Source: a bacterium (GTDB lineage Bacteria > Bacillota_I > Bacilli_A > Izemoplasmatales > Hujiaoplasmataceae). Taken from it: a stretch of 32,346 nucleotides of DNA. The stretch is taken from positions 1 to 32,346 of the forward strand of contig JAUXXX010000072.1 of the NCBI GenBank assembly GCA_030684695.1, given 5' to 3'. How positions within the stretch are numbered: the first letter of the stretch is position 1; every line of letters starts with the position of its first letter. Below, one piece after another: positions 17,883 to 23,525 of this stretch. The notes beneath the pieces were generated by a model. The model was not told where the DNA came from, did no database searches, and saw only the letters and a list, made by a program, of their open reading frames with translations. Position numbers and translations under genes: made by a program.

Positions 17883-19580
17883 ATGGAACAACATTGGTGG
17901 CAACAAACAAATATTTACCAAGTATATTTACGAAGTTTTTATGATTCAAATCAAGATGGAATTGGGGATATTCAAGGGGTCATTCAAAAACTGGACTATT
18001 TAAAAGGCTTAGGAATTGGTGTGATATGGATTAGTCCACATTATGCATCTCCAATGGATGACAACGGATACGATGTCAGCGATTTTTATCAAGTGAGTCC
18101 AGATTATGGAACCATTGATGATTTTAAAGAATTACTTGATAAGGCGCATTCGATGGGCATTAAAGTGATTACGGATTTAATCCTCAATCACACTTCTGAT
18201 GAACATCAATGGTTTGTAGCGGCAAGCAATCCCTTTCATCCTGAGCACCATAAATACCATGATTACTATATTTGGCAACCTCCAAAGAACGATGAACAAG
18301 GTCAAAAAATGCGTCCGACACGTTGGATGGGATGGTTTGGCAGTCCAGCATGGACGTATAACGAAGCAACAAATGAATACTACTTGCATATTTTTTCCAA
18401 AAAAATGCCTGACTTAAATTGGCGTAATGCTTCGATGCGTCAAGAGATGAAAGAGATGATTCGATACTGGATTCAGTTGGGTGTGGATGGTTTTCGGGTT
18501 GATGCATCCAATCATTTAGAAAAGAATTGGGAGTTTCCAGATGATTTTCCAGGGTATCACCATTTTTCAAGTTTACCAAAACACCATGAATATCTAAAAG
18601 AACTTGGGAGTGACATCTTTGTCCCAATGGATCTTCTGACGATTGGTGAATCCGGAGGAGCAAGCAAAGAAGAAGCTTTGCAATACGCAGGATATGGTTC
18701 CAATGAGTTTAATATGCTCATTCAATTTGGACATTGTTGGGCGGATGTTGACGACTCAAATTCAGTATTGATGGGCAAATGGGCTCAAGGAAAACTACGC
18801 TTATCTTCCATCAAAGAAAGTTTTCAAAATTGGTATGAGATGTTAGAAAATGTTGGATGGAATGTGATCTATTGGCATAATCATGACCAACCGCGCATTG
18901 TCAGTCATTATGGAAACGACTCGACTTACTGGTTTGAATCTGCTTCGATGCTTGCAGTTGCATTATATCTCATGCCAGGTACAGCAATTTGCTACCAAGG
19001 CGAAGAAATTGGTATGACCAACGTAGATTATCAAGAACTTAGTATGTTTAAAGACGTTGAAGTATTCACCGAATATCAAAATATGTTAGCCAAAGGTTTG
19101 AGTCACGAACACATAATGACCATCATTCGTGCAAGGTGTCGAGATAATGCAAGAAGTCCAATGCAATGGAGTGAGGCAGCATATGGAGGATTTTCTAAGG
19201 TATCTCCTTGGATGCCTTCCAATGGAAACTATTTGACTATCAATGTCAAAAACCAACTAAATCAACCTACATCCATTTTATCTTTGTATCAACATCTACT
19301 AAATCAACGATTGAGTAACGAAAATATCACACATGGCAAAATCACATTTTTAGATGTTTCATCACAAAAAGATTTTTCATATTTGAATACAGGAACAACA
19401 GAAGAATACCTCGTACTTTGCAACTTTACTTCTTCAAAAATAATGAAGTCTTTAAATGGACTAAATCTGGCGAATTACTCACTTATTTATAACAATTATT
19501 TTACCCTGCAAAATCTTGAAAATGAACAAGAATTATTACCTTATGAATCGCAGGTATGGAAACGAGTGATTTCACAATAA
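17883..19580 (+). CDS. GH13 alpha-glucosidase (MalL/TreC type)
   Basis: The enzyme belongs to glycoside hydrolase family 13, oligo-1,6-glucosidase group, cytosolic because there is no signal peptide. The N-terminus WWQQTNIYQVYLRSFYDSNQDGIGDIQG is diagnostic. Catalytic residues are the nucleophile D207 (GFRVDASNH), the acid/base E256 (TIGESGG) and D335 (HNHDQPR). DGIGD forms the calcium-type loop. A C-terminal beta domain ends the 565-residue protein. The residue after the nucleophile is Ala, which in this group goes with alpha-1,4 preference, whereas Val goes with alpha-1,6 bonds. Trehalose-6-phosphate hydrolase is a close alternative. No sugar transporter or PTS gene lies next to it. GAGGA is placed upstream of the ATG. 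Confidence 0.92.
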   Translation: MEQHWWQQTNIYQVYLRSFYDSNQDGIGDIQGVIQKLDYLKGLGIGVIWISPHYASPMDDNGYDVSDFYQVSPDYGTIDDFKELLDKAHSMGIKVITDLILNHTSDEHQWFVAASNPFHPEHHKYHDYYIWQPPKNDEQGQKMRPTRWMGWFGSPAWTYNEATNEYYLHIFSKKMPDLNWRNASMRQEMKEMIRYWIQLGVDGFRVDASNHLEKNWEFPDDFPGYHHFSSLPKHHEYLKELGSDIFVPMDLLTIGESGGASKEEALQYAGYGSNEFNMLIQFGHCWADVDDSNSVLMGKWAQGKLRLSSIKESFQNWYEMLENVGWNVIYWHNHDQPRIVSHYGNDSTYWFESASMLAVALYLMPGTAICYQGEEIGMTNVDYQELSMFKDVEVFTEYQNMLAKGLSHEHIMTIIRARCRDNARSPMQWSEAAYGGFSKVSPWMPSNGNYLTINVKNQLNQPTSILSLYQHLLNQRLSNENITHGKITFLDVSSQKDFSYLNTGTTEEYLVLCNFTSSKIMKSLNGLNLANYSLIYNNYFTLQNLENEQELLPYESQVWKRVISQ

Positions 19581-19590
19581 GTAAAATGCA

Positions 19591-19618
19591 TTGACATCTT
19601 ATAAAAATTTCATATAAT
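19591..19618 (+). promoter_or_regulatory. Strong promoter for the pot operon
   Basis: TTGACA at 19591-19596 and TATAAT at 19613-19618 with a 16-base spacer. Transcription should start near 19625, leaving about 98 untranslated bases before potA. Confidence 0.85.
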
Positions 19619-19624
19619 AGAATT

Positions 19625-19696
19625 GCGTTTGTTTTTTTGTGGTCTTCCCAGAAGTTTTCTGGCTTGTTCATCAATCGAATAAACGCTTTTATTTTT
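19625..19696 (+). promoter_or_regulatory. Structured potA leader, candidate attenuator or riboswitch
   Basis: The predicted 5' end of the transcript, GCGTTTGTT (19625-19633), pairs with AATAAACGC (19678-19686), nine pairs including one G-U. Right after it comes TTTTATTTTT (19687-19696), so the helix is also a terminator stem. Inside lies a second perfect hairpin, CCAGAA-GTT-TTCTGG (19648-19662). This closing-helix-plus-U-run plan is that of a leader controlling read-through. It resembles no riboswitch class I know. Function is inference. Confidence 0.45.
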
Positions 19697-19722
19697 GAAG
19701 TCTTTTAACATAGGAGGTTAAG

Positions 19723-20769
19723 TTGAAAAAACGACTGATTGTATTAAACCATGTAAAAAAATCTTTTGGAGACTTAACTGTTCTAGATGACTTCAATTTG
19801 TACATCAATGAAAATGAATTTATTACCTTATTAGGACCTTCTGGGTGTGGAAAAACAACATGCCTACGATTGATTGGTGGATTTGAATCGCCGGATGAAG
19901 GAACCATTGAGTTTGATGGAAAAGTCATCAATGATCTAGAACCAAATGAACGAGAAATCAATACTTGTTTTCAAAAATACGCATTGTTTCCCCATCTTAA
20001 TGTCTACAACAATGTTGCGTTTGGTTTAAAAATCAAAAAAGTTCCGAAAGCGGAAATTGAAGAACGTGTCATGCAAACACTAAAACTTGTGAAGTTAGAA
20101 GATTACGCTTCACGTAGTATTTCCACGTTATCTGGTGGCCAACAACAACGCGTTGCGATCGCTAGAGCAATCATCAACCGACCTAAAGTACTCTTACTGG
20201 ATGAACCTTTAGGTGCTCTTGACTTAAAACTCCGACAAGAAATGCAATACGAGCTCAAAGAAATGCAACGACAACTCGGAATCACTTTTGTCTACGTGAC
20301 ACATGATCAAGAAGAAGCACTGACTATGAGCGACGTAATCGTCATTATGAACGAGGGGAAGATTTTACAAATTGGTTCTCCTGAAGATATATACAACGAG
20401 CCCAAAAATCGATTCGTCGCTAATTTTATCGGTGAATCAAACATCTTTGAAGGAAAAATGATCGATGATTACTGGGTGCATTTTTGTGGACGAGATTTCA
20501 AGTGTGTTGACAAAGGCTTTGAGGAATTTGAAGAAGTTGATGTCGTGATTCGTCCTGAAGATTTTGATTTTGTTCCTCCATCCAAAGCAAAAATCGTAGG
20601 AAGAGTCGATAGTTTGATTTTTAGAGGGGTCCACTACGAAATCAACGTTATTGTGGATGGACATGAATATACGATTCATACGACGAAGTATCGTGAGATT
20701 GGAGACAAGGTAGGTCTAGCAGTGGAACCTGCAAACATCCACATCATGAAGAAAGAAGCGTCAAAATGA
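19723..20769 (+). CDS. potA: Polyamine ABC transporter ATP-binding protein PotA
   Basis: PotA powers import of spermidine/putrescine. The 348-residue protein has Walker [13 protein letters not shown]-loop [24 protein letters not shown] signature [14 protein letters not shown], Walker [12 protein letters not shown] and the H-loop VTHDQEEA, followed by a C-terminal TOBE-type domain with [10 protein letters not shown]. The start is TTG at 19723, set by TAGGAGGT ending 4 bases upstream; there is no ATG in the right place. It is the first gene of potABCD. Its TGA overlaps the potB ATG. The substrate is assigned from the whole operon, especially potD. Confidence 0.96.
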
Positions 20770-21596
20770 AGACACTACGACGTTATTCTTTTCCTTACCT
20801 CATATGGATGATTCTCTTTGTTTTGGTACCAACGCTATTTTTAGTTGTTTTAGCTTTTAGTGATCTTTCCTTGTATCGACTAAGTGCGTTTTCGATTCGT
20901 TTCGATAACTTTGCTATATTTCAAGAAAGCTATATTATAACCGCTCTTTCAAATTCCTTAATTTATGCATTTGTTGTAACCATTCTTAGTTTTTTAATTG
21001 GGTATCCTGTTGCGTTCTATTTAACCACGCTATCCGAGAAGACAAAGAAAATATTGATTGCTTTGTTGATACTTCCATTGTGGACGAACATGTTGGTTCG
21101 AATCACGGCATGGGAACGTATCTTTTCACCAAACTCCATTTTTACAGATATATTCAATGTATCTATTCCGATTTTAGGAACACAAGCCGCTGTTGTTATC
21201 GGATTGTTAGCTTTGTACTTACCATTCATGGTATTTCCGATTTTTTCCGTTTTAGATAAACTAGATCCTAAAATGATTGAAGCAAGCAAAGATTTGGGTG
21301 CTAATGATACACAAACATTTATTAAAGTAATTTTTCCGCTTTCTTTGGGTGGCGTTGTGAGTGGATTCATCATGACGTTTTTACCCTCATTGACGGCATT
21401 TGCTTTACCAGAAACATTGGGATGGCGAAGAGTACCGATGATCGGTATGGAAATTCAAAAGAAATTCATTATCGAAGGGTTTCAAGCATTTTCCATCAAT
21501 CAAGGTGCATTAATCTCCATATTAATTATGTTATTTAGCATCGCCAGCTTTATCCTAATTACTCGAGTGGATAAAGAAGGAGAAACCCTGATATGA
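20766..21596 (+). CDS. potB: Polyamine ABC transporter permease PotB
   Basis: This inner-membrane permease of 276 residues has about six hydrophobic segments, starting with [21 protein letters not shown]. The cytoplasmic EAA loop that docks on PotA reads [22 protein letters not shown]. It is paired with PotC in the pore. ATGA overlaps at both ends tie its translation to potA and potC. The long first periplasmic-side loop and the segment [14 protein letters not shown] fit the PotB rather than the PotC type. Confidence 0.95.
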
Positions 21597-22429
21597 TAAA
21601 CTCGAGATTAATGAAAAAGAAAAGCCGTCAAGGAGCAGGATTGCTCTTAACCATCTTATTGTTTGCCTTTTTGTATTTACCCATTATCATAATTTTCATT
21701 ATTTCGATAAATAACTCCACAAGGGGCTATCGCTTTGAAGGACTGACATTGAAATGGTATAGTGAACTCCTTTTTAACTTCAAAACTCCTTCCTCTGATC
21801 TAGTAATTTTTAGAGAAGCCATCTTTAATACGATTTGGGTAGCACTTCGTTCTACCATCATTGCGACCGTCCTAGGAACCATTTTTGCGATTGGAATCAA
21901 TGCTCTTGATAAAAAAAGACGTGTTCGCATGATGGTGTTAAATAACATTCCGGTGGTAAATCCAGATATTGTAACGGGAATATCATTAATGGTTGTCTTT
22001 ACTTTAATCAGTTTTAGTTTAGGTGAAACCACTGTTTTGATTGCTCATGTATTTTTTTCCATACCTTATGTAGTGTTGTCCGTTGTTCCGAAACTGAAGC
22101 GATTGGATCCGAATATGTATGAAGCAGCTCTTGATTTGGGCTGTAGTCGTCTTTGTGCCATTTGGAAGGTTATCATTCCAAATATATCCACTGGTATCAT
22201 CGGAGGTGCCTTAATTGCATTCACGATGTCTATAGACGATTTCGTCATCTCTTACTTTACTTCGGGAATTGATTTTGAGAATGTTTCTATTTGGTTATAT
22301 ACAAAAATGAAAAATCCTCAGAATTTAAATCCAACACTTTATGCATATAACGTGTTGATTATATTGATTACCATTGGTGTTATCTTATTTATTAGTCTGA
22401 AAAGAGATCGAAAGGAGAAACAAAAGTGA
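21593..22429 (+). CDS. potC: Polyamine ABC transporter permease PotC
   Basis: This is the second permease, 278 residues, about six membrane segments. The first, LLTILLFAFLYLPIIIIFIISINN, with the following TLKWYSELLFN, is characteristic of PotC. The EAA loop is EAALDLGCSRLCAIWKVIIPNIS, and the motif AFTMSIDDFVISYF near the end is conserved in PotC/YdcV permeases. The ATG at 21593 overlaps the potB stop (ATGA) and has AAGGAG about 9 bases upstream. An internal ATG at 21611 has no such site. Confidence 0.95.
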   Translation: MINSRLMKKKSRQGAGLLLTILLFAFLYLPIIIIFIISINNSTRGYRFEGLTLKWYSELLFNFKTPSSDLVIFREAIFNTIWVALRSTIIATVLGTIFAIGINALDKKRRVRMMVLNNIPVVNPDIVTGISLMVVFTLISFSLGETTVLIAHVFFSIPYVVLSVVPKLKRLDPNMYEAALDLGCSRLCAIWKVIIPNISTGIIGGALIAFTMSIDDFVISYFTSGIDFENVSIWLYTKMKNPQNLNPTLYAYNVLIILITIGVILFISLKRDRKEKQK

Positions 22430-23493
22430 AAAAATTTCTATTACTTCTTGTGGTAGTTTCTGCCACACTCGCCTTAATTGGCTGTTCACAAAAACCTAAA
22501 CTTTATGTATTAAACTGGGGGGATTATATGGACCCTGAACTCATCTTAGCTTTTGAAAAAGAATATGGAGTAAGTGTTTCATACAAACCAGCAGGTTCCA
22601 ATGAAGAAATGGCTACTTTACTTCAAGCGAGTACGACCACTTATGATATCGTCATACCATCTGATTACATGATTGATAAACTAGTCAAAGAAGATATGCT
22701 TCAACCCATCAATTTTGAATTATTAACAAACTTTGAGTCGCTTGATGTGATTGATAGGTTGTATGATTTATACGCTGCTACTAACATCGCTCCTTATGTA
22801 GTTCCTTATGCATGGGGCACCATTGGAATTTTGTATAATACTACAAATCCAATTCTAAAAGCACTCATTGAACAACAAGGATGGGCGGCTTTGTTTGAGT
22901 TTGGGTCTACTTACAAAGTGGGAATGTATGATTCTGCAAGAGATGCTGTTGCAGCTGCGTTGTTGTACAAAGGATTTCATGTCAATTCGTCCGATCAATC
23001 CGAACTTGACCAGGCAGAACAAGCATTAAAAGATGCGAACTTTAATGCGTGGGGAGAAGACAATCTCAAAGGACTTGTTATTTCTGGTAATCTCGACATG
23101 GCGCTTGTATATTCAGGAGATTATTTTTCGGAATATTATGTTGCTTTAGAAGACGGTATAGCAATTAATTTTGACTTTTACGTTCCCGAAAGCACCAATG
23201 TGTGGATGGATGCCATGGTCATTCCAAAAAATGCCCAAAATGTAGAATTAGCTCATAAGTTTATCAATTTCTTTTTAAGAGAAGACATTGCCATTGCCAA
23301 CTCGGATTATATTGGATACGCTCCTTGTTACACCAGTGTTTATGATGCATTGATTAGTGAAGAGTATGGTTATGATTTTGAGACGTTTAATCCATATCCT
23401 GCCGGAAGTGTTCGTCAAATGTATGTTTATGGAACCGATGATCGTCAATCTAAAATTATTGCAATCTTAAACCGAGCAAAAGCAGCGAGGTAA
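22426..23493 (+). CDS. potD: Polyamine-binding lipoprotein PotD
   Basis: This is the extracellular receptor of the transporter. The N-terminus is a lipoprotein signal, hydrophobic from residue 4 and ending in the lipobox LIGC with lipidated C20, so it is anchored outside the membrane. The mature part starts LYVLNWGDYMDPELILAFEKEYG, as in PotD/PotF. Aromatic and acidic residues that hold the polyamine in E. coli PotD seem kept: the N-W-x-x-Y near residue 30, PSDYMIDKL, and VWMDAMVIP. This supports a polyamine substrate rather than another amine. Length 355. It starts at GTG, overlapping the potC stop (GTGA). A strong terminator follows. Confidence 0.95.
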   Translation: MKKFLLLLVVVSATLALIGCSQKPKLYVLNWGDYMDPELILAFEKEYGVSVSYKPAGSNEEMATLLQASTTTYDIVIPSDYMIDKLVKEDMLQPINFELLTNFESLDVIDRLYDLYAATNIAPYVVPYAWGTIGILYNTTNPILKALIEQQGWAALFEFGSTYKVGMYDSARDAVAAALLYKGFHVNSSDQSELDQAEQALKDANFNAWGEDNLKGLVISGNLDMALVYSGDYFSEYYVALEDGIAINFDFYVPESTNVWMDAMVIPKNAQNVELAHKFINFFLREDIAIANSDYIGYAPCYTSVYDALISEEYGYDFETFNPYPAGSVRQMYVYGTDDRQSKIIAILNRAKAAR

Positions 23494-23497
23494 CAAT

Positions 23498-23525
23498 ACC
23501 CTAGAGGCGACTCTAGGGTTTTTTA
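23498..23525 (+). terminator. Intrinsic terminator of the pot operon
   Basis: ACCCTAGAG (23498-23506), loop GCGA, CTCTAGGGT (23511-23519), then a run of six T. It ends potABCD five bases after the potD stop. Confidence 0.93.

Follow-up and report, generated by a model that had tools for sequence, protein, structure and literature searches.

The potABCD operon, which encodes a polyamine importer, probably carries a built-in brake in its leader, a reading suggested by a hairpin that resembles a transcriptional stop signal and by the conservation of this hairpin in relatives. Specifically, we consider it likely that the leader at 19625-19696 represents a transcription attenuator, an intrinsic terminator built out of the very first nucleotides of the transcript. 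The fold itself, its conservation, the compensatory change between its arms, the U-run that follows and the preference for the sense strand can all be read from the sequences. Coordinates refer to the window, meaning the whole 32,346-nucleotide stretch of DNA that was analysed (contig C20 of genome G000, an 87% complete assembly). The features discussed below are:

19591-19618, + strand: sigma-70-type promoter of the potABCD operon, TTGACA-16 nt-TATAAT, 12 of 12 consensus matches
19625-19634, + strand: 5′ arm of the closing helix P1, GCGUUUGUUU, at the inferred RNA 5′ end
19637-19642, + strand: middle helix of the rod, 5′ side (MFE fold)
19648-19662, + strand: apical six-pair hairpin, CCAGAA-GUU-UUCUGG
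19668-19674, + strand: middle helix of the rod, 3′ side, with one bulged base (MFE fold)
19677-19686, + strand: 3′ arm of P1, GAAUAAACGC
19687-19696, + strand: U-run TTTTATTTTT, putative terminator tail directly after P1, 8 T in the first 9 bases
19712-19717, + strand: AGGAGG ribosome-binding site of potA, read from the sequence
19723-20769, + strand: potA, polyamine ABC transporter ATPase with a TTG start (NCBIfam TIGR01187 potA, above cut-off)
20766-21596, + strand: potB permease (best NCBIfam model PotB, below cut-off)
21593-22429, + strand: potC permease (best NCBIfam models spermidine/putrescine permeases, below cut-off)
22426-23493, + strand: potD substrate-binding protein (best NCBIfam model PotD, below cut-off; Pfam SBP_bac_8)
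23498-23519, + strand: hairpin of 9 pairs with a TTTTTATTGA tail closing the operon, like an ordinary intrinsic terminator

The gene ahead of the operon (17883-19580) is alpha-glucosidase/phosphotrehalase-like, has treC as its best NCBIfam model (below cut-off) and ends 10 bp before the -35 box.

Promoter and fold of the potA leader

The promoter consists of TTGACA at 19591-19596 and TATAAT at 19613-19618 with a 16-nt spacer between them. Promoter-like sites were found eight times in a 2.5-kb region, where 8.3 would be expected, and the 12 of 12 match occurs only at 19591-19618. The sequence-only reading had used a consensus promoter to place the RNA 5′ end at 19625, and the complete match agrees with this; G19625, separated from the -10 box by six bases, is the start predicted from the position of the promoter.

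Beginning at this nucleotide, GCGUUUGUU (19625-19633) pairs with 19678-19686 immediately before the U-run, as had been proposed, through eight Watson-Crick pairs and one G-U pair, and P1 is extended by a further G-U pair (19634-19677). The perfect six-pair hairpin said to be enclosed by this helix is likewise present at 19648-19662. The 71-nt piece 19625-19695 folds with an MFE of -21.2 kcal/mol (z -5.10) and none of 200 dinucleotide shuffles was as good; for the 98-nt leader (19625-19722), z is -2.5 and 3 of 200 shuffles were as good. In the full leader of the window, the rod dominates the ensemble with P1 pair probabilities of 0.98-1.0, and ensemble folding returned no competing fold of the 5′ arm and no antiterminator. 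A consensus terminator scan of the window reported the apical hairpin alone. What lies between promoter and gene is a stable sense-strand hairpin followed by a U-run.

Because the rod dominates and the 5′ arm has no competing fold in the window, a terminator that lowers, and possibly tunes, transcription into potA would be the simplest mechanism. Once RNA polymerase has moved off the promoter, a rod composed of the closing helix GCGUUUGUUU/GAAUAAACGC, the middle helix and the apical hairpin would form from the first ~62 nucleotides. The polymerase would then reach the U-run, and part or most of the transcripts would end before potA. Termination may be weak because the rod has internal loops and A-U-rich stems. 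We infer that termination takes place, that it is partial and that it is adjusted by something.

Conservation of the rod in related genomes

An ortholog set of 12 potA places, the window included, was assembled among 34 genomes of the family at a PotA identity of at least 78%. PotA proteins at least 78% identical were also found on six named contigs, four of which belong to Candidatus Izemoplasmatales. Eleven of the 12 closest potA copies, which come from Izemoplasmatales-type genomes, carry the block TGCGTTTG directly downstream of the -10 region, and since the 11 leaders analysed here were chosen by this string, its invariance is partly a result of that choice. The twelfth copy (L010) lacks the TGCGTTTG block, and its last 160 bases contain no T-rich 8-mer. 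By eye, TATAAT can be made out in eight of the 11 leaders, including that of the window, at a distance of six bases upstream of the conserved GCG (counted to its first G), and L004, L008 and L011 have AATAAT at this place.

All 11 leaders fold into one rod that starts with the RNA 5′ end and closes immediately ahead of the U-run, at which the 3′ ends of the folded sequences were placed by eye. Their MFE z-scores range from -3.1 to -6.8; none of 300 shuffles was as good in ten leaders, and one of 300 was in L004. The U-run follows the rod in every case and contains 6-8 T in its first nine bases (eight bases counted in L003). This regularity bears on the idea that the rod is a 5′-terminal stem guarding the mRNA from 5′-end-dependent decay, or a processing site, with the U-run being incidental. 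Known 5′ stabilisers are helices closing on the first nucleotide, and P1 does close on the inferred first nucleotide. However, a U-run after the stem in 11 of 11 leaders is the arrangement of a terminator and would be needless for protection, making this explanation unlikely.

Attenuation coupled to translation of a leader peptide was also considered, given that a 23-codon TTG frame (19637-19708) overlaps the rod. Yet no Shine-Dalgarno sequence precedes any frame of at least eight codons starting in the first 75 nt of the 11 leaders, four of the 11 have no such frame at all, the encoded peptides differ, and the TTG start in the window is preceded by GCGUUUGUUUUU. With neither a Shine-Dalgarno sequence nor a conserved frame in the 11 leaders, this candidate was rejected on sequence grounds and we regard it as extremely unlikely.

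The 11 leaders were used to build a covariance model, which was searched with strict filters against 90 genomes of the order. It recovered the 11 training leaders (E <= 1e-5) and, outside of the training set, gave weak matches alone, the best of them (E 0.0036) in the potA leader of G056, a member of another family, and another (E 0.7) in the potA leader of G038. These matches suggest an element that accompanies this operon and whose clear form is limited to a single family. In genus g13, hairpins closed from the 5′ end precede U-runs in two of three leaders, both of them weak (L013, z -2.0; L028, z -0.7), and leader L122 is not closed from its 5′ end. With hairpins this weak, we do not claim that the same plan exists outside the family.

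Other potA upstream regions are organized differently. Second potA paralogues (L033-L037, with L037 stemming from the genome of the window itself, G000 C103) have a different upstream region and a short leader. They carry the palindrome TAACTATA...TATAGTTA, which in L036 reads TTACTATA...TATAGTAA, together with GCTTGATTTTT or a very similar sequence close to the likely start, and this second potA copy is probably under another regulator. In another genus (L119, L120 and L123), a conserved palindrome, AATAACTTGC(C/T)AAAGTTATT, is found upstream of potA over the likely -35 box.

Signs of selection on the transcribed RNA

For an arm-swap test, rods were cut in half and the 5′ arms were paired in silico with the 3′ arms of every species. 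The cognate sum is -289.3 compared with a permutation mean of -201.2, and none of 20,000 permutations was as good, with the caveat that permutations ignore relatedness and that some of the 11 orthologues are close to each other. The cognate partner is the best one for 9 of the 11 5′ arms. Among the five leaders that have neither dyads nor a regulator hit (see below), the true arm assignment ranks first of 120. Taking the arms from each leader's own fold, a procedure that favours cognate pairs, led to the same outcome. With the test narrowed to the basal arms, the cognate sum was equalled or bettered by 62 of 20,000 permutations, and 3 of the 11 5′ arms had their cognate partner as the best match.

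Compensatory changes in relatives had been named as the check on the sequence-only reading. They are found between the arms and in the inner helices but hardly in P1, where a double change is seen in one of nine pairs, three pairs never vary, variation is mostly one-sided and 39 of 500 shuffles reach the score of P1 taken alone. At pair column 16, G-C, U-A, A-U, G-U, U-G and C-G are all seen in a pair-type table that, being derived from per-sequence MFE folds, leans towards pairing. The covariation support comes mainly from the inner part of the rod.

The sense strand folds better than the antisense strand in 10 of 11 leaders (Wilcoxon p 0.002), the exception being L002, and 51 of the 295 pairs across the rods are G-U pairs. 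The strand preference fits the G-U pairs, which RNA tolerates and a DNA palindrome does not. Together with the U-run in 11 of 11 leaders, it points to selection on the transcribed RNA as opposed to a palindrome in the DNA alone.

Predicted operators of a PuuR-like regulator

A 17-bp dyad, GTWTA-N7-TAWAC, precedes potA in 20 of the 40 genomes compared from the order (leaders L002, L003, L005, L007, L009, L012, L014, L016, L017, L019-L022, L024, L025, L027, L030, L038, L121 and L124). It occurs twice in 16 of these 20 genomes, 50-52 or 62-63 bp apart and thus near five or six helical turns. Its central W often breaks pairing, as in GTTTA...TATAC or GTATA...TAAAC, a mismatch more readily expected of DNA bound by a protein than of an RNA stem. 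All 13 genomes with an XRE-cupin regulator carry the dyad, as do 7 of the 27 in which the regulator was not found; Fisher's test, with no correction for relatedness, gives p 1.3e-5. These seven are 51-91% complete assemblies. The table of 40 genomes requires a PotA match at E <= 1e-125 and leaves out the loci outside the order (L029, L128-L130).

The regulator has PuuR as its best NCBIfam model (below cut-off) and contains the Pfam domains HTH_3 and Cupin_2 (two proteins). It is encoded in 23 of the 90 genomes of the order, ten of which have no PotA match at E <= 1e-125 and thus fall outside the dyad table. In four of those ten that were fully listed (G039, G059, G073 and G086), no two dyads lie within 100 bases of each other, so the regulator may have other roles there. 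In L179 (1453-2031) and L181 (1486-2034), the PuuR-like regulator gene is found away from the pot operon, flanked by genes which, by eye, we take to be pgk and tpiA.

Named contigs with a close PotA number 576, and in 53 of the best 80 (mostly Clostridia; among L053-L118) an XRE-cupin gene is encoded upstream of potA. The dyad precedes the regulator within 1,400 bases in all 53 of these loci, compared with 50 of 2,650 base shuffles; of the other contigs in the best 80, 12 show the dyad but no adjacent regulator and neither was found in 15. A strict genome-wide search of eight genomes yielded 1-10 sites versus 2-16 in the reversed control. With no genome-wide excess of the dyad, it is only the position upstream of pot genes that carries meaning. 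Based on the co-occurrence of dyad and regulator, the dyad is the predicted operator through which a PuuR-like XRE-cupin regulator would act on the pot operon in Clostridia and Izemoplasmatales. In relatives of the window, the rod leader would then be layered over these predicted operators.

It could be argued that the inverted repeat is itself a DNA element, namely a repressor operator, and that the RNA fold is a by-product. Many relatives' leaders do carry the GTWTA-N7-TAWAC dyads tied to the PuuR-like regulator, and in 6 of the 11 leaders one dyad makes the apical hairpin of the rod. The window, however, is without a dyad, the best weight-matrix score in 250 bases being 0.6 as compared with a training minimum of 15.7. 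Genome G000 has no regulator hit at E <= 1e-12 and no dyad in its pot upstream regions, an absence that, at 87% completeness and with genomes in this set being mostly incomplete, is not proof. The rod is kept in this genome though neither regulator nor dyads were found, and it persists in all five leaders lacking both. In these five, sense folding exceeds antisense folding by 6-17 kcal/mol. The strand preference (10 of 11 leaders) and the U-run that follows place a DNA-only palindrome behind the attenuator, and we regard it as improbable.

The 5′ arm hardly varies across the 11 leaders, whereas the 3′ arm opposite it drifts within the pairing rules, which suggests a second constraint on the 5′ arm. 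In L002, L003, L005, L007 and L012, the 5′ arm overlaps a weaker site, GTTTA-N7-TTAAC (matrix scores 6.5-10.8), positioned 22 bp before the next dyad, and this overlap partly explains the invariance in five of the six dyad-bearing family members. The dyad-less leaders L001, L004, L006, L008 and L011 still keep the first eight bases. The weaker site is retained in L006 (6.8) and L008 (7.7) and is poorer in L011 (3.0).

Possible control of termination

In a search for an antiterminator by ensemble folding of the 11 full leaders, L002 and L005 were the only ones whose 5′ arm paired mostly with sequence lying downstream of the rod. When TGCGTTTGTTTA was matched against both strands of the 34 family genomes in search of a trans-acting RNA complementary to the 5′ arm, nothing recurrent was found: nine of the 12 matches are potA leaders and the other three lie in three genomes. 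A loose 18-mer scan that allowed three mismatches found about as many sites as chance would give and was set aside.

The sequence-only reading had offered an attenuator or a new riboswitch. In the latter case, the rod would be, or would contain, an aptamer for spermidine or putrescine that sets termination. The leader does precede a polyamine import operon and combines a closing helix at the 5′ end with a U-run, a common riboswitch layout. A transcription-terminating spermidine riboswitch also exists elsewhere (PMC10853860). On the other hand, the 11 leaders share no conserved unpaired core; conserved bases are located in the paired 5′ arm, whereas the apical loop and the 3′ arm change freely. 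No alternative fold was seen in the window and no Rfam family fits the leader: at the gathering score nothing matched in the window, 12 relatives' loci gave nothing besides a ribosomal RNA, and none of the eight matches at E <= 10 for 19550-19780 is sensible or belongs to a SAM family. A riboswitch is therefore very unlikely, while the attenuator half of the proposal has held up through the hairpin and U-run in 11 of 12 copies and the compensatory change.

Polyamines favour folded RNA. It is conceivable, if just as doubtful as an aptamer, that they stabilise a weak rod without any aptamer and raise termination. Such an effect would subject the importer genes to direct feedback in lineages where the PuuR-like repressor has been lost and where its operators would once have overlapped the rod bases. 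For the attenuator that we favour, our guesses as to control are a trans-acting factor that recognises the conserved 5′ arm and sets termination, or polyamines acting directly on rod stability.

Relation to known systems

The leader is best filed as a putative further ABC-transporter leader attenuator, the premature terminator upstream of an ABC-transporter operon being represented here by fold and U-run only. ABC-leaders were listed in 2010 and include the potABCD leader of the Pasteurellaceae Haemophilus somnus and Pasteurella multocida (Naville and Gautheret, PMC2965389). They resemble the present case in having a premature terminator in the 5′ leader of potABCD or another ABC-transporter operon. 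They differ in that an antiterminator is reported, whereas none is seen in the window, and they belong to another phylum.

The spermidine riboswitch, a SAM-I variant of Gram-positive genera such as Bacillus and Lysinibacillus, is the only validated one met in the literature surveyed (PMC10853860). It shares with the window a leader RNA, premature termination and polyamine genes (PMC10853860). It differs in consisting of a four-stem SAM-I aptamer located before polyamine biosynthesis genes (PMC10853860), while the leader of the window is a single rod without an Rfam match.

PuuR/PauR-type XRE-cupin repressors have palindromic operators (PMC7901475). The dyad of the relatives similarly co-occurs with an XRE-cupin regulator, while the window has neither. 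Premature RNAs internal to potB of Borrelia burgdorferi also represent a spermidine-linked shortening of a pot transcript, but they arise within the coding sequence and not from a 5′ leader hairpin (PMC10319736). A hairpin upstream of murB-potABCD in Streptococcus agalactiae could be a leader attenuator in a Bacillota pot operon (PMC8744998). It is, however, located in the folK-murB gap before murB, and its role is left open by the authors (PMC8744998). No description of this potA leader or of the GTWTA-N7-TAWAC dyad was found in searches that covered mainly open-access literature.

Implications

Validated polyamine-sensing leader RNAs are, to our knowledge, rare, so even a negative in-vitro test of this leader would be useful. 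The comparison further yields a predicted operator, GTWTA-N7-TAWAC, and its regulator for the pot operon in Clostridia and Izemoplasmatales. The relatives provide naturally occurring test cases: the RNA element stays, with the repressor either present or seemingly lost. If the rod does terminate transcription, the operon would have a leader brake that is conserved across a family of mostly uncultivated Izemoplasmatales-type bacteria.
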